Assembly: GCA_030018935.1 (NCBI GenBank)
Contig: JASEGZ010000008.1
Span: forward strand, 1 to 36,365
DNA: 36,365 nucleotides
Direction: 5' to 3'
From: Syntrophales bacterium
Lineage (GTDB): Bacteria; Desulfobacterota; Syntrophia; Syntrophales; CG2-30-49-12
Below the pieces are notes generated by a model. The model saw nothing but the letters and a program-made list of their open reading frames with translations. It was not told where the DNA came from and did not search any database. Positions within the stretch are counted from its first letter, which is position 1, and each line of letters begins with the position of its first letter. This document shows positions 9,142 through 36,365 of this stretch, piece after piece. The translations under genes and the position numbers were made by a program.

Positions 9142-9207
9142 TAGGTCGTAAGTCATAGGTCGTAGGTCAAAAGACGTATGACTGATGACGTATGACTGAT
9201 GACTGAT
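9142..9207 (+). repeat. Dispersed GTCGTAAGTC/GTATGACTGATGA intergenic repeat, copy 1
   Basis: The hdrC-hdrB gap is filled by AGGTCGTAAGTCATAGG-like units followed by AAAAGACGTATGACTGATGA, the latter part repeated. A closely matching inverted copy lies at 19540-19590 and a short related piece at 12086-12097. Confidence 0.75.
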
Positions 9208-9221
9208 ATTATAGGAGGCGC

Positions 9222-10082
9222 ATGTTGAAAGTTTCATACTATCCGGGATGCTCACTCCACGGCACGGCGAAGGAATATGACCAATCGGTAAAGGCTGTAT
9301 GCAGCGCCCTGGGGATTGAACTGAAGGAGGTTGATGATTGGTGCTGTTGTGGCGCCACCTCCGCCCATAGTACCAATTTTAAACTCTCCATTGCCCTTCC
9401 CGCTCTAACCCTTATCGCTGCCGAAAAGGATGCCGCTGATGTGCCGGAAGTGATGGTCCCCTGTGCCGCCTGTTTCAATCGCTTAAAGACCGCTCACTAC
9501 CATCTCAAGAAAGACAGCATCTTAAAATCCGAGGTGGAAAGTATCGCCGGCAGGGAATACAGGGGCTCGATAATCGTGAAAAATCCCATTGACATTATTT
9601 ATAACGATATAGGCCTCCCGACCCTGAGCGGAAAAGTGACCAGGAAATTGACGGGTCTCAAACCGGTTTCCTACTATGGATGCCTCCTGTTGAGACCACC
9701 GGAGGTCTGTGAGTTCGATGACTATGAAAATCCCGTCATGCTGGATAGCATCATGAACTGTCTCGGGGCCAATGCACGTCCCTGGTCTTACAAGACTGAT
9801 TGCTGTGGCGGTAGTCTCACCATCAGTAAAACCAATATCGTGCAGCGGATGGTGAATAAATTGATAACCATGGCCAGAGAAACCGAGGCAAACTGTCTCG
9901 TTGCGGCCTGCCCCATCTGCATGGCCAATCTGGACATGAGGGCCAGTGAAAACGTGAGACTTCCCGTCTTTTATTTTACCGAATTGATAGCCCTGGCCAT
10001 GGGACTCCCGGGACCGGAAAGCTGGTTTAAACTTCACCACGCCGATCCGGCGCCCCTCCTCGATGTTTTAGGACTGCTCTGA
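9222..10082 (+). CDS. hdrB: Heterodisulfide reductase subunit B-like
   Basis: A 286-residue protein with two CCG-domain cysteine motifs: YYPGC...WCCCGAT...VPCAAC in the N-terminal half and YYGC...DCCGG...CPIC in the C-terminal half. In methanogen HdrB such motifs hold two noncubane iron-sulfur clusters that reduce a disulfide. All cysteines of both motifs are present, so catalytic capacity is expected. The physiological disulfide in bacteria is not certain; a DsrC-like protein is one proposed partner, but none is encoded here. ATG at 9222 follows a strong AGGAGG at 4 bases. It belongs to the redox operon. Confidence 0.9.
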   Translation: MLKVSYYPGCSLHGTAKEYDQSVKAVCSALGIELKEVDDWCCCGATSAHSTNFKLSIALPALTLIAAEKDAADVPEVMVPCAACFNRLKTAHYHLKKDSILKSEVESIAGREYRGSIIVKNPIDIIYNDIGLPTLSGKVTRKLTGLKPVSYYGCLLLRPPEVCEFDDYENPVMLDSIMNCLGANARPWSYKTDCCGGSLTISKTNIVQRMVNKLITMARETEANCLVAACPICMANLDMRASENVRLPVFYFTELIALAMGLPGPESWFKLHHADPAPLLDVLGLL

Positions 10083-19516: not shown

Positions 19517-19539
19517 TTTCCGTATACTCCTTATAAAAC

Positions 19540-19590
19540 ATCAGTCATCAGTCATACGTCTTTTGACTTACGACTTAAGACTTACGACTT
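19540..19590 (-). repeat. Dispersed intergenic repeat, inverted copy 2
   Basis: Read on the minus strand, this segment gives AAGTCGTAAGTC units followed by AAAAGACGTATGACTGATGA. It matches 9142-9207 over about 45 bases with few differences. It lies between korC and the ACT-domain gene. Confidence 0.75.
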
Positions 19591-26140: not shown

Positions 26141-26227
26141 TTATTATTGTAAAGTATTCAGAAAGTTGCGTTGAAAAACGAAAACGAGTAGCCAGAGACT
26201 AACTTATTAAGGAAAGGAGGTATGCAA

Positions 26228-26899
26228 ATGCAACAATACGAAATAGCATTGGAGATAGCCGGGGCCACCGCTATGTGGACACGGCCTGACACAGGCGACT
26301 GCCCAGTAAGTTATCCAGCGCCAACATACTCGGCCGTCAAGGGCATCTTCGAATCGATGCTTTGGGGGCCAGCGGTGCAGATCATTCCAACAAAAGTCGA
26401 AATATGCGCTCCTGTCCAATACCACAACTATCAGACGAACTATGGCGGTCCGCTTCGAAAATCTCGTGTCATCGCCGAAGGGGGTGGATTCCAGCTTCTG
26501 GCAACGGTACTGATTGATGTTTGCTATAGGCTATACGCAGAAGTGTTACCTCCTCCCAATATTGCTAGGAACTGTGTTCCTGATAAGGCGCGGCAATGGG
26601 ATGGGAAAACAACGTCACCGGGCCATGCCTATCGGGAAATTTTTAATCGTCGCCTCAGGCGGGGGCAATGCTTCACCATCCCGTTTCTTGGCTGGAAGGA
26701 GTTTGGACCGAGCTACTTCGGGGCATTTCGAGAGACAACGAGGGTTCAGAGCGATATACATATGGTGATCCCCTCCATGTTGCGAGAGGTTTTTTCCGAA
26801 GGCTACGCGTCAAAATGCGCATTCACCTATGAACAGGACGTCAAGATCACTGCGGGGATGATGGTGTTTTCTGGGGAAGGAGGCCACCATGCTAAATGA
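26228..26899 (+). CDS. cas5c: Cas5 (type I-C, Cas5c/Cas5d)
   Basis: A 223-residue RAMP protein. In type I-C, which lacks Cas6, Cas5 cuts the pre-crRNA and caps the crRNA 5' handle in Cascade. Motifs are YEIALEIAGATAMWTRPDTG at the N-terminus, YPAPTYSAVKGIFESMLW, and the C-terminal FLGWKEFGPSYFGAF typical of Cas5d. An ATG at 26222 exists, but the ATG at 26228 lies 7 bases after AAAGGAGG. It is the first gene of the intact cas block, 87 bases after the cas3 remnant; the stop overlaps cas8c by 11 bases. Confidence 0.92.
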   Translation: MQQYEIALEIAGATAMWTRPDTGDCPVSYPAPTYSAVKGIFESMLWGPAVQIIPTKVEICAPVQYHNYQTNYGGPLRKSRVIAEGGGFQLLATVLIDVCYRLYAEVLPPPNIARNCVPDKARQWDGKTTSPGHAYREIFNRRLRRGQCFTIPFLGWKEFGPSYFGAFRETTRVQSDIHMVIPSMLREVFSEGYASKCAFTYEQDVKITAGMMVFSGEGGHHAK

Positions 26900-28985
26900 A
26901 CTTTATCATCTTTCCGTTGTTCTGAAGGGTGTAGTTCCAACACCCGATGAGCATGACAAGTTGAGGAATTTGCCGAGCGTGTCAGCAATAAAGCCATGCT
27001 ATCGGATTTCAATCAGCCCAGACGGGTCCATTTCAGACATTGAATCTATGAGAAAAGAAAACGCGGCACGCCTCCGTAAGTGGGAGCCCAGCAATGGTAA
27101 TTCCTTCCCCGGCTTCAATATTCAGCCGCTTTACCGTCTTGCGGATGAAGACAAAAAGAAACGTTTGAAGAAGTGGCGTGAAGGTAAGGAACCGGTTGAT
27201 TTCACTCTTCTTAAAGAATGGTGTGTCGAAGAAAAAGCAAAAAACTGGAACGCGAAATCCGACAAGAAAATGGACAAATGTCTCGGGACGATTCCTCGAG
27301 AACTTCACGAGAAGTGCGCCGATATTCCAAAGGATTTTAACGCTCTAAAGAACCTTTTTGAAAGAATCATAGATTGGGGGAATGGGCGTTCTATTAAATT
27401 CTTTCAGGCTCTAGAATCGTATATCTGGAGATCTCTTGAAAAAGACGGTCGTGATCTGTCCCTGCTTTCTGTCCTGATCCACGAAGGTTCTTCAGACAAG
27501 AAACCCGAGAATGACCGCGGCACCGTCTCGGTGTTTCTGGATGTGCCGGACTGGAAGGAATATCCGGTAACCCATGAAAAGACCATAAAATACATTAATG
27601 ACTGCCTTCTGAAATCAGAAAGTGCCCATAGCATAAAAACTGGATATGAAAAAGAAGATGCTTTTGGTTTAGACAGTAGCGGTGACAAAGACAAACTTCC
27701 TGAAGTAAGGCTTCCTTATATCGGGAGAGTAATTCTCCGCGCCATGAACAGAGAGTCGCCCTGCCAATACCGATATGGAACTGTCGATGCAGGATCTTTT
27801 CGCATCGGGGCAAAAAGTCGTAAACGTTCAAAAGGCGCACTGAAGTGGCTTGGTTCTGATGACCGAAAAGGAAAGACCTGGGGATGGGCAGGTGGTAAAG
27901 AGTTAATTTTTGCCTATCCTGAAATTTTGCCAGAAGTACCGCCCAAGCTTGCTGCGTTATTTGGTGCAAGCAAATCTGACGATTCAGAAGCGCGTTTCGA
28001 AAATTACGCCAAAGACGTCGTAGACTGCCTGAAAGGGCTGTCAACCTCGCTCAAAGATGTTCAGCTTCGGGTGTTTTCCTTGCGCAAGATGGACACAGCG
28101 CGCACCAAAGTCGTTTTTTATCGCAACTATTCGGCACAACGGTTGGCAGAAGCTGCAAAGGAATGGCAGCAAGGTTGCGCCAACATTCCATCCATTCGGA
28201 TAAAGTCATGGGGGGAAGAGAAAGGAAAAACTGTTGTAGCTGATCCGGTGACACCGTTCCCGCTGCAAATTGCGGAATGCCTTAATCTCGTTTGGAAAAT
28301 GGAAGGTTCGGTTAAAAGCGATAAGAAAACAGTAAAGAAGGGTAATTCAACGCCATACCCGTTCCAGGCTATTCCTAAAACGGCAGGTATTGAGTTGATG
28401 CTCGATGAAGTTGCAGCGCAGCGACAGGTACCGCATTTGCTCACCGTAACATTACAGAATGGCAAAGGACTGTTCCTTTCATTGGGAAACAGCCTGCATC
28501 GCGATGAGGTTATTAAGCTTGATGGATTCAATAAACACAAACAGCTGATGCCGGTGATCCTGGGGCTTTTGCTCTGGAAGCTCGGCATCGGAAAGGAGAT
28601 ATATATGAACAATTCACCCTATCTGGTAGGGAGAATGCTGAAACTCGCCGATGACCTTCATGCGCTGTACTGTAAGGAAGTTCGCAAGAATAATCTGCCG
28701 CCTCAATTACTTGGAAATGCCTTGATGGTTGCAGCTCTTGACAGCCCGACTCAGGCACTTGCGCAACTTGCTTTGCGAATCACCCCATACTTGGGATGGG
28801 CGCGGACCAATACCACAGAATCAGTCGGTCTTTCACGGTATTTTCTCAAGGAATTCGGACTTATCGAAATCAAGTTGCGCGACGCGGTTTTACCTGATCG
28901 CCTCAATGATTCCGATAGAGCGCAGCTTCTTCTCGGCTACATATCCGGCAATACTCAAACTGACGAACCCACCAACAACTCATGA
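26889..28985 (+). CDS. cas8c: Cas8c (Csd1) large subunit, divergent and long
   Basis: A 698-residue Cascade large subunit, recognised by position between cas5 and cas7 and by local Csd1-like features (RVILRAMNRESPCQYRYGTVDAGSF; the C-terminal NSPYLVGRMLKLADDLH and NALMVAALDSP). Cas8c usually has about 550-650 residues, and the first 100 residues here do not resemble the normal start. It recognises the PAM and includes a small-subunit-like C-terminus in type I-C. ATG at 26889 follows AAGGAGG. Its stop is followed at once by the cas7 ribosome-binding site. Confidence 0.82.
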   Translation: MLNELYHLSVVLKGVVPTPDEHDKLRNLPSVSAIKPCYRISISPDGSISDIESMRKENAARLRKWEPSNGNSFPGFNIQPLYRLADEDKKKRLKKWREGKEPVDFTLLKEWCVEEKAKNWNAKSDKKMDKCLGTIPRELHEKCADIPKDFNALKNLFERIIDWGNGRSIKFFQALESYIWRSLEKDGRDLSLLSVLIHEGSSDKKPENDRGTVSVFLDVPDWKEYPVTHEKTIKYINDCLLKSESAHSIKTGYEKEDAFGLDSSGDKDKLPEVRLPYIGRVILRAMNRESPCQYRYGTVDAGSFRIGAKSRKRSKGALKWLGSDDRKGKTWGWAGGKELIFAYPEILPEVPPKLAALFGASKSDDSEARFENYAKDVVDCLKGLSTSLKDVQLRVFSLRKMDTARTKVVFYRNYSAQRLAEAAKEWQQGCANIPSIRIKSWGEEKGKTVVADPVTPFPLQIAECLNLVWKMEGSVKSDKKTVKKGNSTPYPFQAIPKTAGIELMLDEVAAQRQVPHLLTVTLQNGKGLFLSLGNSLHRDEVIKLDGFNKHKQLMPVILGLLLWKLGIGKEIYMNNSPYLVGRMLKLADDLHALYCKEVRKNNLPPQLLGNALMVAALDSPTQALAQLALRITPYLGWARTNTTESVGLSRYFLKEFGLIEIKLRDAVLPDRLNDSDRAQLLLGYISGNTQTDEPTNNS

Positions 28986-28996
28986 AAGGAGAAATT

Positions 28997-29884
28997 ATGA
29001 ACGACAATATCAAACGTTCTACTGGCCTCTTGATCATCGAAGTAGTGAATTCCAACCCGAACGGCGATCCCGACCGCGAGAGTGATCCGCGCCAGCGTCC
29101 CAACGGTCTCGGCGAAATCTCGCCGGTATCCTTCAAGCGAAAACTCCGCGACCTGGTTGAAAATACCGAAGGACCTGTCTTTACGGCCGTGTGCGAAAAA
29201 CTTGGTTTGAACAAGGACGAGTTTAAGATTCTCGAATCGAGGGAACGCGTCAGAAAAGATATCTCCGCTGAAATGGCTAAAGACATAAAGGATTTTGATC
29301 AGAAAGAATTCTTGAATAGTCCATTTGTCAAGAAGTATTGGGATGGTCGTCTTTTTGGAAATACCTTTCTCGAAGAAGGCGGCAACAAGGGATATATCAA
29401 GACAGGTGTGGCTCAATTTACGATGGGTCTTTCGGTAGCCCCCATCCTGATTCAACGCCACACCAATACGAACAAAGCTGGGGTGGAGGAAGGCAAGACA
29501 CAGGGGATGGCGCCGTTGGCATACCGGGTGGTCGAGCATGGTGTGTATTGCATGCCATTCTACGTAAATCCGAGCCATGCTCACAAATCCGGATGCACAC
29601 AGAAGGATGTCGATTTGATGAAGGCGCTTATTCCCTTTGCCTACGATCACACCCGTTCGGCTATCCGCCCAGATGTTCGCATCCGGCATGCCTGGTATAT
29701 GGAACACCAGGACTCGCTTGGAAGTTGCGCCGATTGGAAGTTGATTGACGCCCTGACCCCAAAGCGCAAGGGAAATGATCCGATGCAGCCTTCGACTTCG
29801 TGGAACGACTACAGCGTACCGGTTGATCTTCCGGATGATCTTAAAGGAAAAGTCTCATTTTCCGACTTGATGGGGGCTGTTTGA
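28997..29884 (+). CDS. cas7c: Cas7 (Csd2) backbone subunit, type I-C
   Basis: A 295-residue RAMP protein that coats the crRNA spacer in Cascade. The start TGLLIIEVVNSNPNGDPDRES, then GEISPVSFKRKLRDLVE, is the Csd2/Cas7c signature. Other family stretches include YWDGRLFGN and VVEHGVYCMPFYVNPSHAHKSG. ATG at 28997 follows AAAGGAG by 6 bases; an in-frame ATG at 28982 that overlaps the cas8c stop is less likely. The stop shares one base with the cas3 start (TGATG). Confidence 0.92.
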   Translation: MNDNIKRSTGLLIIEVVNSNPNGDPDRESDPRQRPNGLGEISPVSFKRKLRDLVENTEGPVFTAVCEKLGLNKDEFKILESRERVRKDISAEMAKDIKDFDQKEFLNSPFVKKYWDGRLFGNTFLEEGGNKGYIKTGVAQFTMGLSVAPILIQRHTNTNKAGVEEGKTQGMAPLAYRVVEHGVYCMPFYVNPSHAHKSGCTQKDVDLMKALIPFAYDHTRSAIRPDVRIRHAWYMEHQDSLGSCADWKLIDALTPKRKGNDPMQPSTSWNDYSVPVDLPDDLKGKVSFSDLMGAV

Positions 29885-32067
29885 TGTTATTTGCTCACAG
29901 CAGCGACTCGAAGCGGGGCATTCCGGCGCAAGACTACGCCGCCCATATCGGCGGCGTAGTCAAACTTGCCAGTCAGGCGGCTGATGCGACCGGTCATTAC
30001 GCATTGCACGATGGGGAGCTTTTGAGAAAAATCGTTCCTCTGGCTGCCGAGTTTCACGATCTGGGGAAGTTGGACGTAGAAAATCAGGATGTGCTGTCCG
30101 GAAAACGGAAGGCACGACATCTACCGGTTCAACACACCGATGCCGGAACTGCTTATCTGTTGGATAAGATTCAAGTTGCACCTGGTGCGGCTCTCGTCCG
30201 TTCACATCACATCGGCTTGCCCGATTTCATTGAAGAGCAGAACCGTAAAGAGAAGAATGTTCTCAGGGATGATCGTGTCTTAGAAAGGGTAAATCGAACA
30301 CTCCCCGAACTGGTTCGGATGCATGAAGAGACAAGGTTGTCGGCGGCGGATATAAGCCCGAATCTTCGTGAAGTGATGGGGGATGCTTCTCTTTTCTTCC
30401 GTATCGCCCTCTCCTGTCTTGCTGACGGGGATCATGCTGACACGGCGATCCACTATCAGGATCAGAGTGCCGATGAACCGTTTATTGCATTGCGACCGGT
30501 AGACCGTTTGGCGGCGCTGGATCGGTATGTCGAATCCCTAAAACAGGACAATGATCGGTCACGCCTCCGTTCAGAAGTCTATGCTGCCTGCCGGGATACT
30601 GACATACCGGGGAATATCGTCTCCTGCGACAGCCCGGTCGGCACTGGTAAAACCACGGCTGTAATGGCGCATCTGCTGGCGCAAGCGCAGAAACGAAAAC
30701 TTAGAAGAATTATTGTCGTTTTGCCCTTTACCAACATCATTACGCAGTCCGTGAAAGTATATCGCGATGCGCTCGTCCTGCCCGGCGAAGATCCGAAGCT
30801 TGTTGTCGCGGAATTGCATCATCGCGCGGAGTTTGAGGATATACATAGTCGTAAGTTTACAGCCCTCTGGAAAGCCCCGATCATCGTGACCACGGCCGTC
30901 ACTTTTTTCGAAACGCTGGCATCCAACACGCCTGCCACATTGCGGAGGTTGCACAACCTGCCAGGCAGCGCGGTTTTTATTGACGAATCCCATGCGGCGC
31001 TACCTGCCAAGCTATTGCCATTGGCATGGCGTTGGATCAAGGGATTTGCACGAGAATGGGCATGTTATTGGGTTCTTGCATCCGGATCACTCAACCGTTT
31101 TTGGAAAATTGAGGAATTCGATAAGGAAAAATCGGATATTCCAGAAATAATGCCTGTGAAATTACGCGACCGTTTGGCGAAATACGAACAAGGACGGATC
31201 ATATACCGCTTCAATGACATACCCCTGGGGGAAAGAGACCTTGTGGAATGGGTGGCCTCTCTTCCGGGACCGCGAATCGTTATTTTGAACACGGTGCAAA
31301 GCGCGGCAGTCTTGGCGCGTGAGCATGAAAGGTGTTTTCAACGCTCATCTGTGGAGCATTTGTCCACAGCGCTTACACCTTCTGATCGGGATAGAACTCT
31401 TGCCAGAATTAAATCGCGTCTGGCGGATATGCACGACACCGAGTGGACACTTGTAGCCACATCCTGTATCGAGGCCGGAGTTGATATTTCTTTCAGGACA
31501 GGGGTGCGTGAAGCAGCCTCTCTGGTTTCCCTGCTTCAAACCGCAGGGCGGGTCAATCGCCACAACCATATCAGTGCGGAGAATGTTTGGACTATCCTAC
31601 TCAAAGAATCAGACTTCCTGAAAAAGAATCCCGGCATGAGCGATTCCTCGAAGGTTCTGATTGGACTAATATCAGAAGGATGCTCGATTTCCCCCGATCT
31701 TTGCACAAATGCACTCAAACGTGAAATCCGGCTTGCCGGGACTTTTTCAAGTTCGCTGCTGAAGTCTGAAGAAGGTTTGCGGTTCCCTCAGGTTGAAAAG
31801 AACTTCCATGTTATCGCAACTGATACACGAACTGTGGTCGTTGACCAGAGTGTGGTTGAAAAGATGGAGACCCATCGCCCGGTTGATTGGCGGGATATAC
31901 AAAAAACATCCGTGCAAATATGGGGGTATCGCCTCGACAATCTTCGCATTCCCGAAGTTTCAGGACATCCAGGAATATACAAGTGGAATTATGCCTACGA
32001 TGATTTCATTGGCTATATGGCAGGTATTTTAAAAATGACAAATGATCCTAACAATTTCGTTGTTTAG
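29884..32067 (+). CDS. cas3: Cas3 HD nuclease-helicase, non-canonical position
   Basis: A 727-residue Cas3. The HD domain has His21, His58-Asp59, His84 and His108/109. The SF2 helicase has Walker A SPVGTGKTTAV (250-260), motif II DESH (367-370), motif ATTAVTFFETL, and motif VI QTAGRVNRH (552-560). All key residues are intact, so it should degrade target DNA. It lies after cas7 rather than before cas5 as in standard type I-C. Its N-terminus (MLFAHSSDSKRGIPAQDYAAHIGGVV) is unlike the canonical I-C remnant at 25979. It is translationally coupled to cas7 by a one-base overlap. Confidence 0.93.
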   Translation: MLFAHSSDSKRGIPAQDYAAHIGGVVKLASQAADATGHYALHDGELLRKIVPLAAEFHDLGKLDVENQDVLSGKRKARHLPVQHTDAGTAYLLDKIQVAPGAALVRSHHIGLPDFIEEQNRKEKNVLRDDRVLERVNRTLPELVRMHEETRLSAADISPNLREVMGDASLFFRIALSCLADGDHADTAIHYQDQSADEPFIALRPVDRLAALDRYVESLKQDNDRSRLRSEVYAACRDTDIPGNIVSCDSPVGTGKTTAVMAHLLAQAQKRKLRRIIVVLPFTNIITQSVKVYRDALVLPGEDPKLVVAELHHRAEFEDIHSRKFTALWKAPIIVTTAVTFFETLASNTPATLRRLHNLPGSAVFIDESHAALPAKLLPLAWRWIKGFAREWACYWVLASGSLNRFWKIEEFDKEKSDIPEIMPVKLRDRLAKYEQGRIIYRFNDIPLGERDLVEWVASLPGPRIVILNTVQSAAVLAREHERCFQRSSVEHLSTALTPSDRDRTLARIKSRLADMHDTEWTLVATSCIEAGVDISFRTGVREAASLVSLLQTAGRVNRHNHISAENVWTILLKESDFLKKNPGMSDSSKVLIGLISEGCSISPDLCTNALKREIRLAGTFSSSLLKSEEGLRFPQVEKNFHVIATDTRTVVVDQSVVEKMETHRPVDWRDIQKTSVQIWGYRLDNLRIPEVSGHPGIYKWNYAYDDFIGYMAGILKMTNDPNNFVV

Positions 32068-32086: not shown

Positions 32087-32713
32087 ATGGACGATGAATT
32101 GATTGCCATATCGGCTCTGAGTCACTATTCATACTGTCCGCGGCGCTGCGCCCTTATCCACATCGAACAGGTCTGGACTGAGAACCGTTTTACCGCCGAA
32201 GGCAGGATCATGCACGAGCATGTGCATGACGAAAGCCGGGAATCCCGGGGTGATGTTAGGATCGACTACGGCGTGTCGCTGCGCTCACTGCGCCTGGGAC
32301 TGATCGGAAAGGCCGACGTCGTGGAATTTCATCGTCAGCCGGATGGTTCCTATCTTCCCTTTCCTGTGGAGTACAAGCGGGGCAAGCCCAAGGCGGACGA
32401 CTGTGACAATGTCCAACTCTGCGCTCAGGCGATGTGTCTGGAGGAAATGTTGTCTGTGCCGATCCCAGAGGGGGCGCTCTTCTACGGCCAGACCCGCCAT
32501 CGCCTTGATGTCGTCTTCGATGATGCACTGAGACAGGAAACGGAGGAGACGGCCCGCAGGGCACACGAATTGATTGACTCCGGCATAACCCCCAAACCGG
32601 TTTACGCGAAGCGGTGCGAAAGTTGCTCCCTGGTGGCCGAATGTTTGCCGAAAACGATCCAGAAGCGGCGTTCGGTGAAGAGCTATTTGACGCGAATGCT
32701 GGGTGAGCCATGA
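32087..32713 (+). CDS. cas4: Cas4 nuclease
   Basis: A 208-residue RecB-type exonuclease with a [4Fe-4S] cluster, which trims prespacers and checks their PAM before Cas1-Cas2 insertion. Cluster cysteines are Cys17 or Cys21 in YCPRRC, and Cys177, Cys180 and Cys186 in CESCSLVAECLP. Nuclease residues lie in GKADVVE (Asp77) and PVEYKRGK (Glu95, Lys97). ATG at 32087, 19 bases after cas3. Its last 26 codons are repeated with changes at 33931-34023. The stop overlaps the ATG of a micro-ORF. Confidence 0.93.
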   Translation: MDDELIAISALSHYSYCPRRCALIHIEQVWTENRFTAEGRIMHEHVHDESRESRGDVRIDYGVSLRSLRLGLIGKADVVEFHRQPDGSYLPFPVEYKRGKPKADDCDNVQLCAQAMCLEEMLSVPIPEGALFYGQTRHRLDVVFDDALRQETEETARRAHELIDSGITPKPVYAKRCESCSLVAECLPKTIQKRRSVKSYLTRMLGEP

Positions 32714-32802
32714 AGGTCGAGCGCAAGCAGCTATTCTACAAGAATATCTTCGTGGGAACTGTGTCGTTGAATGCCCCAAAACTTAGAGGGTTGGCAGCAT
32801 GA
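32710..32802 (+). CDS. 30-codon micro-ORF bridging cas4 and fic
   Basis: ATG at 32710 overlaps the cas4 stop as ATGA, and its TGA (32800-32802) overlaps the fic ATG as ATGA. It encodes MKVERKQLFYKNIFVG followed by 14 more residues, ending GLAA. It resembles no protein I know. It may only keep ribosomes on the mRNA between cas4 and fic, or be the start of a gene cut by the insertion of fic. Confidence 0.4.
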   Translation: MKVERKQLFYKNIFVGTVSLNAPKLRGLAA

Positions 32803-33851
32803 AATCATTGGATCGCAGTTTTCTTGAGCGTCAAGCCGTTCCTTTGGAATTTGCCGGGACACTTCGTTTATTGGGTGAGTACCGGGGGAAGCAGGAACTC
32901 TATACACGGCAGCCCCCCCAGGTATTGAACACCCTGAAGCAAGTCGCCATTATCCAGAGCGCCGAATCGTCAAACCGTATCGAAGGCGTCATTGTAGAAG
33001 AAAAGCGATTGAAGCCCCTCCTGGAGAAGGAGGCGACTCCCAGGAATCGTTCGGAGGCTGAGGTTGTCGGGTATAAGAATGTCCTGTCACGGATTCACAC
33101 TGCCCATGAAAGTTTCAAAATTTCACCGAACACAATCCTGAAGATTCATCGCGACATGTTGAGCCACACCGATCTTCCCGCCGGGAGATGGAAGAATCGA
33201 GATAATACCGTTGAAGAAAGACTTCCCGATGGTCGCTGGATCACGCGGTTTGTCCCTGTCACGGCCCGCGAAACCCCCTATTACATGAATGAGCTATGCG
33301 GCCGATTTAACGGCTTGTGGGAAGAAGGCCGGATAGACCGTCTTTTGTTGATACATGCCTTTGTGCTCGATTTTCTCTGCATTCATCCTTTTACGGACGG
33401 CAATGGGCGCGTCTCCCGGCTGCTTACCGTGTTGCTGCTCCATCAGAGCGGTTACGAAGTGAGTCGCTACATTAGCCTTGAGCGACTGATCGAGGATAGC
33501 AAGGAGAGCTATTACAACGTCCTGAATCGTGCCTCAGAAAGATGGCATGAGGGAGGGCATGCAATTCTTCCCTGGTGGCAGTTCAGCCTCGGCATTTTGA
33601 TTGGCGCTTACAAAGAATTTGAAAACCGCGTGGGCATTATCCGCTCAAGTCGGGGAGCGAAAACAGCTTGGGTGAGAGATGCCATCGAGCAACTTCCCGA
33701 AGAGTTCGGCGTGGGAGAACTTGTCCGTGCCTGTTCGGGGGTGAGCCGCCCTATGATTCGTCTTATACTTGAGGCACTGCGGAAGGAAGGAAAGCTGGAA
33801 GTTCTGGGAACAGGTCGCGGGGCGAAATGGAAGAAACGCGATAATATCTAA
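32799..33851 (+). CDS. Fic-family protein, class II, with C-terminal winged helix
   Basis: A 350-residue Fic protein. The catalytic motif HPFTDGNGRVSR (His196-Arg207) is complete, so it can transfer AMP (or another nucleotide group) to protein hydroxyls. An inhibitory motif of the [S/T]xxxE[G/N] type, SNRIEG (Ser58-Gly63), lies before the core; this is the self-inhibited class II arrangement, so no separate antitoxin is needed. The C-terminal about 70 residues resemble a winged helix. Inserted between cas4 and a second cas4 tail; ATG overlaps the micro-ORF stop. Target unknown. Confidence 0.88.
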   Translation: MKSLDRSFLERQAVPLEFAGTLRLLGEYRGKQELYTRQPPQVLNTLKQVAIIQSAESSNRIEGVIVEEKRLKPLLEKEATPRNRSEAEVVGYKNVLSRIHTAHESFKISPNTILKIHRDMLSHTDLPAGRWKNRDNTVEERLPDGRWITRFVPVTARETPYYMNELCGRFNGLWEEGRIDRLLLIHAFVLDFLCIHPFTDGNGRVSRLLTVLLLHQSGYEVSRYISLERLIEDSKESYYNVLNRASERWHEGGHAILPWWQFSLGILIGAYKEFENRVGIIRSSRGAKTAWVRDAIEQLPEEFGVGELVRACSGVSRPMIRLILEALRKEGKLEVLGTGRGAKWKKRDNI

Positions 33852-33930
33852 TAAACGTGATAATAAACATGATAACAACCAAGAATCAGGTAACAACAGT
33901 AAATATAGGCAATAAATTAGGTAACAAACG
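33852..33930. other. AT-rich junction with GATAATAAAC/GGTAACAA units
   Basis: A short stretch after fic with repeats of (A)TGATAATAAAC and GGTAACAA. It borders the cas4 remnant and may mark an insertion junction. Confidence 0.4.
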
Positions 33931-34023
33931 CTGGTGACCGAATGCCTGCCGAAGACGATTCAGAAGCGGCGGTCAGTGAGGAGTTATCTGACGCGAATCT
34001 TGGGGGAGACGGGACTGGTATAA
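33931..34023 (+). pseudogene. cas4 3'-end remnant
   Basis: The frame CTG at 33931 to TAA at 34021-34023 reads LVTECLPKTIQKRRSV, then RSYLTRILGETGLV and stop. It aligns with the last residues of the intact Cas4 (LVAECLPKTIQKRRSV, then KSYLTRMLGEP). DNA identity is roughly 80 per cent over 78 bases, so it is not a fresh tandem copy. No upstream cas4 sequence is present. It lies between fic and the mntA-like gene and points to an older cas4 that once preceded cas1. Confidence 0.85.
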
Positions 34024-34080: not shown

Positions 34081-34395
34081 ATGAAATCGCGAAAGAAGCT
34101 TGAACTGACGGCAGAAAAAGTTTTCAGCATATTAAGGGAACATTCCGATACATTAGAAAGGCTTTCCGTCAAAAAGATCGGGGTGTTTGGCTCCTATGTG
34201 CGTGGCGAGCAAAAATCTCGGAGTGATATAGATTTTCTTGTAGATTTTGAAAAGCCTACTTTCGACAACTTTATGGATCTCGTATTTTCTCTTGAGAAAT
34301 ATCTTGGCAGACGAGTGGATGTTATTACGGAAGGCAGCCTTAGCCCTTATATCCGCCCTTATGTGGAAAAGGAGGTCAGGTGGTATGAAGTCTGA
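34081..34395 (+). CDS. mntA: MntA-like nucleotidyltransferase antitoxin
   Basis: A 104-residue minimal nucleotidyltransferase with the exact GSx10DxD motif (Gly37, Ser38, Asp49, Asp51 in GSYVRGEQKSRSDIDF). MntA antitoxins inactivate HepT by adding AMP units to a tyrosine beside its catalytic histidine. ATG at 34081 is preceded by AGGAGG at 9 bases. The stop overlaps hepT by 11 bases, the normal MntA/HepT layout. Located between the cas4 remnant and cas1. Confidence 0.9.
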   Translation: MKSRKKLELTAEKVFSILREHSDTLERLSVKKIGVFGSYVRGEQKSRSDIDFLVDFEKPTFDNFMDLVFSLEKYLGRRVDVITEGSLSPYIRPYVEKEVRWYEV

Positions 34396-34744
34396 CGCTC
34401 AGTTCCTGAGGCATATCTTTGATGAAATTAATTTCACCATGCGTGAAACAAGGGGGTTGGCCTTTGAGGATTTTATAAAGAACGAGACATTAACAAGAGC
34501 ATGCACAAGAAGTTTGGAGATCATCGGGGAGGCAGTAAAGAACCTCTCGCCTGAGTTCAGAAAAAGGCATCGGGCGATTGACTGGAAAAAACTTGCCGGT
34601 ATGAGAGATAAGGTCATACATTTTTATTTTGGCGTGAACTGGGATATTGTGTGGGACGTAATGGAAAATCGCCTGCCTGTTCTTAAGATTCAGATTGAAA
34701 ACATGCTGAATGAGATGAAAACAAAGGATGAAGAAACTTCTTAA
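34385..34744 (+). CDS. hepT: HepT-like HEPN ribonuclease toxin
   Basis: A 119-residue HEPN toxin with the complete RX4HXY motif (Arg74, His79, Tyr81 in RDKVIHFYF). Family HepT cuts RNA, and Tyr81 is the expected site of AMP addition by MntA. ATG at 34385 follows GGAGG; the frame extends to 34247, but that part lies inside mntA. Its end overlaps cas1 by 17 bases, so the toxin and cas1 are likely co-translated. Confidence 0.92.
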   Translation: MKSDAQFLRHIFDEINFTMRETRGLAFEDFIKNETLTRACTRSLEIIGEAVKNLSPEFRKRHRAIDWKKLAGMRDKVIHFYFGVNWDIVWDVMENRLPVLKIQIENMLNEMKTKDEETS

Positions 34745-35759
34745 CACCCTTTTTGTCACGACGCAGGGTGCCTACCTCGCCAAGGAGGGGGAGACGATCG
34801 TCGTCAAGGTGGAAAAGGAGATCCGCCTCCGTCTCCCCGTGCATACGATTGGCGGGATCGTCTGCTTCGGGAATGTCGCGTGCAGTCCCTTCCTGATGGG
34901 CTTCTGCGCCGAAAAGGGCGTGGGGATCAGCTTTCTTACGGAACACGGTCGCTTTATGGCACGGGTACAGGGGCCGGTTTCCGGCAACGTTCTCTTACGC
35001 CGGGAACAGTACCGCCGCGCTGATGACCCACAGGTCTCCGCCGATGTAGCCCGGTCAGTGCTGACAGGGAAGATCGCCAACAGCCGGAAGGTTCTCCAGC
35101 GGGCGCTGCGTGATCATGCTGATAAACTGGCTGCGGATCAGGTGGGATTTGCCATAAAGCGCCTGAACAACTATCTCGAATTGCTGAATCAGGATCAGTC
35201 TCTCAACGCACTTCGCGGTTGCGAGGGGGATGCAGCCCATATCTATTTCAACGTCTTCGACCACCTGATCGTGGCCCAGAAGGAGGCATTCTCCTTTCAG
35301 GAGCGGAACCGGCGGCCACCCTTGGACAACGTCAATGCCCTGCTCTCCTTTATTTATGCTCTGCTTGTTCATGATGTCCGCTCGGCATTGGAGACGGTTG
35401 GGCTTGATCCGGCAGTGGGGTTCCTTCACCGGGACCGACCAGGCCGACCCAGTCTTGCTCTTGATCTCATGGAGGAATTTCGGCCGTTTTTGGCGGACCG
35501 ATTGGTCCTATCCCTGATCAATCTCCGCCAAGTTCAAGGAAAGGGGTTTAACAAGACGGACTCCGGGGCGGTTATGATGACGGACGATACGCGCAAAACA
35601 GTGCTGATCGCCTACCAGGAGCGGAAACAAGAGGAAATTCAGCACCCCTTCCTCGATGAAAAGGTGAGTATAGGTCTGCTGTTTCATATGCAGGCCCTGC
35701 TGATGGCGCGTTATCTTCGGGGCGATCTCGACGGGTATCCGCCGTTTATCTGGAAGTGA
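34728..35759 (+). CDS. cas1: Cas1 integrase, type I-C
   Basis: A 343-residue Cas1 that with Cas2 inserts new spacers. The start MKKLLNTLFVTTQGAYLAKEGE is typical of I-C Cas1. Metal ligands are Glu166 (LRGCEGD), His234 (GFLHRDRPGR) and the acidic residues of LDLMEEFRP. ATG at 34728 lies inside the end of hepT. In standard I-C loci Cas1 directly follows cas4; here MntA/HepT intervenes. Confidence 0.96.
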   Translation: MKKLLNTLFVTTQGAYLAKEGETIVVKVEKEIRLRLPVHTIGGIVCFGNVACSPFLMGFCAEKGVGISFLTEHGRFMARVQGPVSGNVLLRREQYRRADDPQVSADVARSVLTGKIANSRKVLQRALRDHADKLAADQVGFAIKRLNNYLELLNQDQSLNALRGCEGDAAHIYFNVFDHLIVAQKEAFSFQERNRRPPLDNVNALLSFIYALLVHDVRSALETVGLDPAVGFLHRDRPGRPSLALDLMEEFRPFLADRLVLSLINLRQVQGKGFNKTDSGAVMMTDDTRKTVLIAYQERKQEEIQHPFLDEKVSIGLLFHMQALLMARYLRGDLDGYPPFIWK

Positions 35760-35768
35760 GGGAACGTA

Positions 35769-36059
35769 ATGCTTGTTCTTGTCAGCTACGATGTATCAAC
35801 GGTGAGTGGAGCGGGACAGCGACGGTTACACCGGGTAGCGAAGACCTGTCAGAATTACGGACAAAGAGTGCAATACTCCGTTTTCGAATGCATTGTCGAT
35901 CCGGCGCAATGGGCGACCCTGCGGCAGAAGTTGATTGATGAAATCGATCCCCAGCAAGACAGTCTGCGATTTTATTTTCTGGGGTCGAACTGGAAACGCC
36001 GTGTCGAGCATATCGGCGCCAAGAAATCGCTGGATCAGGAAGGGCCGCTGATCGTTTAA
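35769..36059 (+). CDS. cas2: Cas2, type I-C
   Basis: A 96-residue ferredoxin-fold protein, the structural partner of Cas1. MLVLVSYDVST contains the conserved aspartate (Asp8); QNYGQRVQYSVFECIVDPAQW is the Cas2 core. ATG at 35769, 9 bases after the cas1 stop. Length is normal. Confidence 0.96.
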   Translation: MLVLVSYDVSTVSGAGQRRLHRVAKTCQNYGQRVQYSVFECIVDPAQWATLRQKLIDEIDPQQDSLRFYFLGSNWKRRVEHIGAKKSLDQEGPLIV

Positions 36060-36244: not shown

Positions 36245-36365
36245 GTCGCCCCCCGCGTGGGGGCGTGGATTGAAACATCAATGGCCGTCAGGATTGTGGC
36301 AACGTTCCTGGGTCGCCCCCCGCGTGGGGGCGTGGATTGAAACGCTAAAAGAATTGAAATCATTT
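36245..36365 (+). CRISPR. Type I-C CRISPR array, leader end, cut by window
   Basis: Two identical 32-base repeats lie at 36245-36276 and 36312-36343. They start GTCGCCCCCCGCG, contain the CCCCC/GGGGG stem around GCGT and end GTGGATTGAAAC, the standard type I-C repeat. Spacer 1 is 35 bases (36277-36311). Spacer 2 begins at 36344 and is cut at the window end. The gene order cas1-cas2-leader-array matches transcription away from cas2. Confidence 0.97.

Follow-up and report, generated by a model that had tools for sequence, protein, structure and literature searches.

We consider it probable, if by no means certain, that the fic gene following cas4 in the CRISPR locus described here occupies, as a guest, a place where insertions recur, namely, the boundary between the effector and the adaptation genes of type I loci, and that it serves as a restrained back-up defence gene. 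The adaptation side of this boundary consists of cas4-cas1-cas2 or, alternatively, of cas1e-cas2e. Interchangeable genes of the defence or toxin-antitoxin type, all in the cas orientation, would arrive at this position, get replaced and leave fragments behind. In the best reading of the data, the boundary is a revolving-door site for autonomous, probably abortive-infection, genes.

The cas locus of the window and its Fic protein

The window (the whole stretch of 36,365 nt that was analysed) carries a cas operon at the right end of its contig, in a source genome of 2.07 Mb in 90 contigs. The gene order at this end is cas5-cas8-cas7-cas3-cas4-micro-ORF-fic-mntA-hepT-cas1-cas2, followed by the start of the array (Table 1). 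The locus is named I-C-like because its Cas1 belongs to type I-C by the curated Cas1c model, which passes with 542.2 bits versus a cut-off of 385, and the effector proteins all remain under the I-C cut-offs (19.6 versus 218.65 bits for Csd1, 63.9 versus 85 for Cas5c, and 123.5 versus 182.25 for Csd2). The original prediction described cas4 as joined to fic through a 30-codon open reading frame with ATGA overlaps at both ends, and this anatomy holds, with the overlaps at 32710-32713 and 32799-32802; what had been overlooked is the 3' end of a second cas4 at 33931-34008 and the mntA-hepT pair between that copy and cas1. This pair has the layout of type VII toxin-antitoxin systems, i.e. an MNT gene and a HEPN gene in tandem, with matches to PF01909 and PF01934 above the gathering scores, and is called MntA-HepT-like because both genes remain under the NCBIfam equivalog cut-offs of 60 bits. 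The last 17 nt of hepT are shared with the beginning of cas1.

Table 1. Features at the right end of the window
Feature	Position	Strand	Evidence and remarks
cas5	26222..26899	+	Pfam PF09704 2.7e-10; NCBIfam Cas5d 63.9 bits, under cut-off 85
cas8, divergent, Csd1-like	26889..28985	+	weak matches only, PF09709 and TIGR01863; clear relatives in L113 and L138
cas7	28982..29884	+	Pfam PF05107 3.1e-53; Csd2 model 123.5 bits, under cut-off 182.25
cas3, positioned after cas7	29881..32067	+	HD and helicase models, under cut-offs
cas4, complete	32087..32713	+	TIGR00372 148.5 bits (cut-off 65); 91% identical relative in G090
ATGA junction of cas4 and micro-ORF	32710..32713	+	usual cas4/cas1 overlap, inherited; following AG also matches cas1 start ATGAAG
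micro-ORF, 30 codons, interpreted as a scar of insertion and not as a gene	32710..32802	+	shuffles, single relative, codon changes
AGAGGG, likely ribosome binding site of fic	32785..32790	+	8 nt before fic ATG; sequence and inference
second ATGA overlap, micro-ORF and fic	32799-32802		sequence
fic, class II, 350 aa	32799..33851	+	PF02661 4.9e-16; PDB 8uqu_A 6.4e-99; PADLOC SoFic model 3.1e-36
inhibitory motif SNRIEG, residues 58-63	32970..32987	+	sequence
Fic motif HPFTDGNGRVSR	33384..33419	+	sequence
fic 3' end with short tandem repeats	33830..33880	+	same stretch is a fossil in L129, L154, L122 and L098
probable fossil 3' tail of a ficC-type fic	33883..33927	+	98% to the stretch preceding cas4 in L114
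3' remnant of second cas4	33931..34008	+	83% to resident 32630-32707; tblastn 85% over 27 aa
mntA-type nucleotidyltransferase antitoxin	34081..34395	+	PF01909 2.1e-15; NCBIfam MntA 43.2 bits, under cut-off 60
hepT-type HEPN RNase	34385..34744	+	PF01934 9.6e-25; NCBIfam HepT 38.6 bits, under cut-off 60
cas1, type I-C	34728..35759	+	TIGR03640 542.2 bits, cut-off 385
cas2	35769..36059	+	TIGR01573 74.4 bits
CRISPR array start, two identical 32-nt repeats	36245..36343	+	contig end falls inside the array

The effector module (26222-32067) is a divergent I-C-like one, with cas3 after cas7 and a Cas8 that barely matches Csd1; the cas3-after-cas7 order is also seen in L113, L138, L157, L181 and L198. 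Elsewhere in the window, an imperfect long inverted repeat (9145-9230 and 19517-19588; 50 nt at 90%) is built of GTCATACGTC-like units, with its arms about 10 kb apart. Promoter and terminator scans gave no excess over shuffled sequences (11 versus 10.4 and 9 versus 12.5, respectively).

Class II Fic adenylyltransferases combine an HxFx(D/E)GNGRxxR motif with an inhibitory motif, (S/T)xxxE(G/N), which is located in the same chain, N-terminal to the core. Both are found in the window Fic, as HPFTDGNGRVSR and the N-terminal SNRIEG, so that the expectation of a complete active site with an inhibitory motif of its own proved correct, and each motif is intact in all 13 cas4-linked fic copies checked. 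As judged from these motifs, the window gene is an intact class II fic and its product a predicted adenylyltransferase, with 8uqu_A as the nearest solved chain (6.4e-99); by the SoFic equivalog model NF046030 it is not a SoFic, scoring 41.4 bits versus a curated cut-off of 550. The dN/dS ratio of fic is 0.05-0.09 in five of six pairs, the sixth pair having no value, and the gene appears to be under purifying selection, the dS of 1.2 to 2.7 between copies being near saturation. The gene is preceded by its own Shine-Dalgarno-like AGAGGG.

Large gaps at the boundary of effector and adaptation genes

In the 155 genomes of the order, fic was found at 33 places in 32 genomes, and cas4 in 49 rows from 43 genomes. 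The predicted non-random adjacency of the two genes is supported by this comparative search: 11 of the 33 fic places adjoin a type I-C cas4, and in two more, L168 and L170, both type I-E loci, fic is flanked by cas6e and cas1e, the chance expectation of adjacency being far below one by simple arithmetic (33 genes, genomes of roughly 2-4 Mb). Judged by regular presence in the subtype, fic is not a core or subtype-specific cas gene: of the roughly 46 cas4 loci in the order, 11 have it as a neighbour, and other guests take its place elsewhere. Furthermore, none of 80 fic loci from genome contigs matches the probed cas genes, so the function of the Fic family cannot depend on CRISPR. Other fic genes of the order adjoin a DrmD-like helicase (L254), a PglX-like methylase (L251) or a DGQHR protein (L259); of these three neighbours, the DGQHR domain model alone passes its cut-off.

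The position of the insertions was surveyed by measuring every junction in the type I-C loci of the order and in 77 loci from the rest of the phylum that were found by cas1. A junction was counted only where both neighbours were detected by tblastn, so that n varies; gap sizes were extrapolated from the tblastn ends, and a gap of 300 nt or more was considered large. Such gaps were found at 67 of the 235 junctions flanking cas4 (cas7-cas4 44/103, cas3-cas4 5/11, cas4-cas1 18/121), as compared to 3 of the 423 other junctions (cas1-cas2 1/117, cas8-cas7 0/107, cas5-cas8 0/100, cas3-cas5 2/88, cas7-cas3 0/11). The bias is significant by Fisher's test with a p of 2e-29, or 6e-29 when the window is omitted. 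All surveyed loci come from one phylum and, because most of the sources are fragmented draft assemblies, single junctions could be mis-assembled. Loci L168-L172 and L249, which lack cas4, and L141 stand outside the I-C counts, and no use was made of two anomalous junction types, cas3-cas7 and cas3-cas1, each of which occurs in a single locus with a negative gap. L141 contains a fused cas4-cas1, an ORF of 569 aa with matches to Cas4 as well as Cas1, accompanied by a different effector set.

The surveyed type I-E loci (40 of the 49 places in the phylum, plus L168 and L170, found through fic) have no cas4, and the same slot is seen just before cas1e. Specifically, large gaps were found at 11 of 31 cas6e-cas1e and 2 of 11 cas5e-cas1e junctions, as compared to 0 of 42 for cas7e-cas5e and 2 of 31 for cas5e-cas6e; the p value is 2.5e-4 once L168 and L170 are removed, and 5.8e-4 on further removal of L304, the gap of which may contain an undetected cas6e. 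The large gaps at cse1-cas7e (9/9) and cse1-cas6e (1/1) were not counted, being taken to contain a cse2 too divergent for the probe, and several small classes with no large gaps were left out (cse1-cse2, cse2-cas7e and cas6e-cas7e, 10 junctions each, and cse2-cas6e, 3). The guests found in the I-E loci include Fic (L268), Bro-N (L270, L276 as a fragment, L280 and L288), an IVP-like protein (L272), DUF1016 (L273) and RhuM-Fic (L281). Hence a hotspot specific to cas4 is ruled out, and the site is to be described as the effector/adaptation boundary.

The type I-C gaps contain guests of the Fic, Bro-N, RhuM, DUF1016, AAA_14, 23S-IVP-like and MntA-HepT families. By number of guest ORFs, Bro-N (20) is followed by 23S-IVP-like (14), Fic (13), RhuM-Fic (7), RhuM (6), DUF1016 (2), AAA_14 (1) and HepT (1). 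All 64 of these named-family ORFs are on the cas strand, as are the Bro-N of L119 and the fic of L122, which were missed by the ORF picker and are left out of the 64. A further 29 gap ORFs have no family name (16 on the plus and 13 on the minus strand), and some gaps contain only such ORFs; the seeds for naming guests were drawn from the same loci, and Pfam was run on representatives. When nine guest proteins were scanned with PADLOC, seven matched, Fic best to the SoFic model and six best to phage-defence-candidate (PDC) models, and there was no match for the HepT and IVP-like proteins. Guests are missing from most loci. The 14 23S_rRNA_IVP-like ORFs, in L158, L176, L183, L185, L187, L193, L198, L204 and L205, are four-helix guests, some of them just below or without a Pfam match; the 23S_rRNA_IVP family is otherwise known from rRNA intervening sequences. 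HEAT-repeat guests of about 290-299 aa are found between cas7 and cas4 in L219 and L226.

A shared Fic clade, fossils and cas4 duplicates

In a tree of 27 rows, the window Fic falls into one clade with L132, from a type I-C locus, and L168 and L268, from type I-E loci (support 100/99). All four members found, two per subtype, are located at the effector/adaptation boundary; the fic of L168 has a stop near its end. The other cas-linked fic type, ficC, falls outside this clade, which implies at least two captures of fic, and further Fic types are contained in L122 and L129.

Former guests have left recognisable remains. The 3' end of the window-type fic is found without the gene in L129 (94% over 51 nt), L154 (86% over 49), L122 (84% over 49) and L098 (88% over 42), in all four cases at a guest position, whereas none of 200 random 46-mers from the window gave a match at E 1e-6; Fic genes of other types are present elsewhere in the L154 and L122 loci. 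Similarly, 27 codons of a ficC end are left between Bro-N and cas4 in L130. Extra pieces of cas4 are located beside guests in L118, L153, L185, L188, L192 and the window. Such duplicates suggest recombination between related loci, for which we infer a route through cas4.

The end of the insert in the window looks like the remains of an older guest together with a second cas4. The 45 nt at 33883-33927, between fic and the cas4 remnant, resemble the tails found behind ficC genes, and in L129 and L203 a run of this kind comes after Bro-N. A regulatory site was considered for this stretch and rejected in view of these matches; we prefer to see in it a fossil or a tail repeat, and it may also be a separate repeat element. 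Immediately behind the stop codons of two fic types lie short tandem repeats of about 12 nt, of the GATAATAAACGT or GGTAATAAATTA type (the window at 33846-33880, L268 and L132; ficC tails in L118, L126 and L154-L156), and a third Fic, in L122, has a comparable run behind it; these repeats might be regulatory or might aid recombination. The history of the window could then be envisaged as a resident cas4 that was joined by an imported piece, comprising the micro-ORF DNA, fic, an older fic tail and a second cas4 cut to its last 78 nt, with a separate mntA-hepT guest placed ahead of cas1.

Several Bro-N guests between cas4 and cas1 (L113, L116, L120, L160 and L167) end in an ATGA or GTGA that overlaps the cas1 start. 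In the first three of these the overlap is ATGA; therefore, guests can re-create a coupled junction.

Possible roles of the guest and of the boundary

The fic gene would be co-transcribed with the cas genes, its product being kept inactive by the SNRIEG helix. Infection could release the enzyme, with AMPylation of a host protein and a halt of growth as the result. In this role, which follows the proposal made for Sofic, Fic would back up CRISPR interference without taking part in interference itself or in spacer acquisition. Since the family is widespread outside CRISPR, we read the window gene as a general abortive-infection gene lodged in CRISPR operons. The earlier suggestion of a host or phage protein as the target that Fic might modify in the course of defence agrees, by analogy, with the precedent of Sofic, for which the part of PMC12249575 considered here describes abortive infection by AMPylation.

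It seems very improbable that cas4, the micro-ORF and fic make up a translationally coupled unit with a functional micro-ORF peptide, perhaps an AS1-like antitoxin. Such coupling had been read from the ATGA overlaps at both ends of the micro-ORF; the E. coli Sofic has a 47-aa antitoxin gene beside it (PMC12249575, in the part considered), and a relative of the micro-ORF (L114) is 79% identical to it over 28 residues. However, the first ATGA is, by comparison with relatives, the normal cas4/cas1 junction that was inherited: among guest-free loci with a cas4-cas1 gap below 60 nt, this overlap joins the two genes in 25 of the 28 from the order and in 46 of the 61 from elsewhere in the phylum, and the cas4 end in the window retains ATGAAG, i.e. 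the start of cas1. Dinucleotide shuffling that leaves the two ATGA ends in place yields an open frame in 1088 of 5000 cases (22%). The micro-ORF DNA is present in 2 of the 155 genomes, the window included, and the other copy lies between an AAA_14 ATPase gene and cas4, with no stop-codon overlap and no adjacent fic. In blastn against 167 CRISPR-neighbourhood loci, the L114 locus was the sole match, and tblastn against the 80 fic loci gave a best E of 0.75 outside the window's own locus; with one relative across these loci and the 155 genomes, a conserved peptide was rejected. Six of the eight codon differences between the two copies are nonsynonymous and two synonymous (dN 0.117, dS 0.314), and the dN/dS of 0.37, which comes from 28 codons only, is compatible with weak constraint. 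Nor is this a conserved small gene beside Fic of the Sofic-AS1 type, as the micro-ORF has this narrow distribution, with no fic beside the other copy, and lies upstream of fic, whereas AS1 is located downstream of Sofic (PMC12249575, same part). Because ATGA is normal in guest-free relatives, the frame is open in 22% of shuffles and the relative has no fic, the chain looks like a junction or insertion scar rather than a working linker or gene. Of the original interpretation, the non-random adjacency of fic and cas4 is supported; designed translational coupling through the micro-ORF chain is not supported. Even less credible is a true accessory Cas protein that would AMPylate Cas4, Cas1 or another component and so control spacer acquisition: the strict position beside the adaptation genes in two subtypes speaks for it, but Fic is also found in I-E loci, which have no cas4, unrelated guests replace it, and most loci do without it.

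The main rival, which we regard as unlikely although it deserves serious consideration, is neutral tolerance, whereby the boundary simply accepts insertions, since these leave effector assembly undisturbed, and Fic, whether selfish or of general use, has no working link to CRISPR. This would agree with guests that are unrelated, exchangeable and missing from many loci, with fossils that show loss, and with the presence of the same Fic family beside other defence-like genes in the order (L254, L251 and L259). It is harder to reconcile with the common cas orientation of all 64 named guests, with the predominance of defence or defence-candidate families among the guests (seven of the nine scanned match PADLOC models) and with the purifying selection maintained on fic. 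Beyond the preferred reading of a recurrent insertion site with a restrained back-up gene, we tentatively put forward, as possible but rather doubtful, that the boundary is a dedicated docking site, at which it would be of selective advantage to carry a single exchangeable gene for killing or dormancy, self-restrained and placed just before the spacer-acquisition genes, with the same guest clades circulating between subtypes by recombination through the adaptation genes.

Some of the components of this picture have been known since 2013. In the portions considered here, PMC3936711 (Zhang, Doak and Ye) reports that cas loci contain 10 Fic/Doc genes, of which some have a RhuM domain and those from sequenced genomes are in type I, as well as 23S_rRNA_IVP genes, frequently accompanied by cas4 or cas6, and toxin-antitoxin pairs, and suggests a coupling of immunity and dormancy; the same portions hold no rule confining insertions to the effector/adaptation boundary, no occurrence of Bro-N, and no fossils, cas4 duplicates or Fic clade shared by I-C and I-E. 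The hypothesis that immunity is coupled to suicide, with toxin-like genes linked to CRISPR operons as back-up, drew on Cas2, on Cas4 and on toxins located close to type III operons (PMC3506569, the text of which, as far as considered, has no occurrence of Fic). RhuM-like and Doc/Fic genes lodged in restriction-modification operons were interpreted as multilevel defence in the part of PMC3710099 considered; the host operons are restriction-modification ones there, whereas the hosts here are CRISPR type I loci, in which the position of insertion is fixed. With Sofic, as described in the same part of PMC12249575, the window Fic shares class II, the N-terminal inhibitory motif, a C-terminal domain and a match to the PADLOC SoFic model (3.1e-36); unlike Sofic, it is far under the NCBIfam SoFic equivalog cut-off, lies inside a cas operon and has no recognised AS1-like gene. 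In the open-licence literature searched, no account was found of the fixed position in two subtypes, of a turnover of guests that leaves fossils, or of a Fic clade common to both subtypes.

So far, the debate on whether CRISPR immunity is coupled to suicide or dormancy has relied mainly on scattered gene neighbours. With one fixed slot for unrelated toxin-like genes in two subtypes, and with fossils of past occupants, this becomes a countable and testable pattern, which lets one ask whether a guest is protective only when CRISPR fails and whether deletion of a guest alters spacer uptake. It also yields a simple rule for finding new defence candidates, namely, to read the gap before cas4 or cas1. 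Should the boundary indeed be a docking site, CRISPR operons would be immune cassettes built in layers, with an exchangeable slot for a fail-safe gene, and in this they would resemble what restriction-modification operons appear to be.
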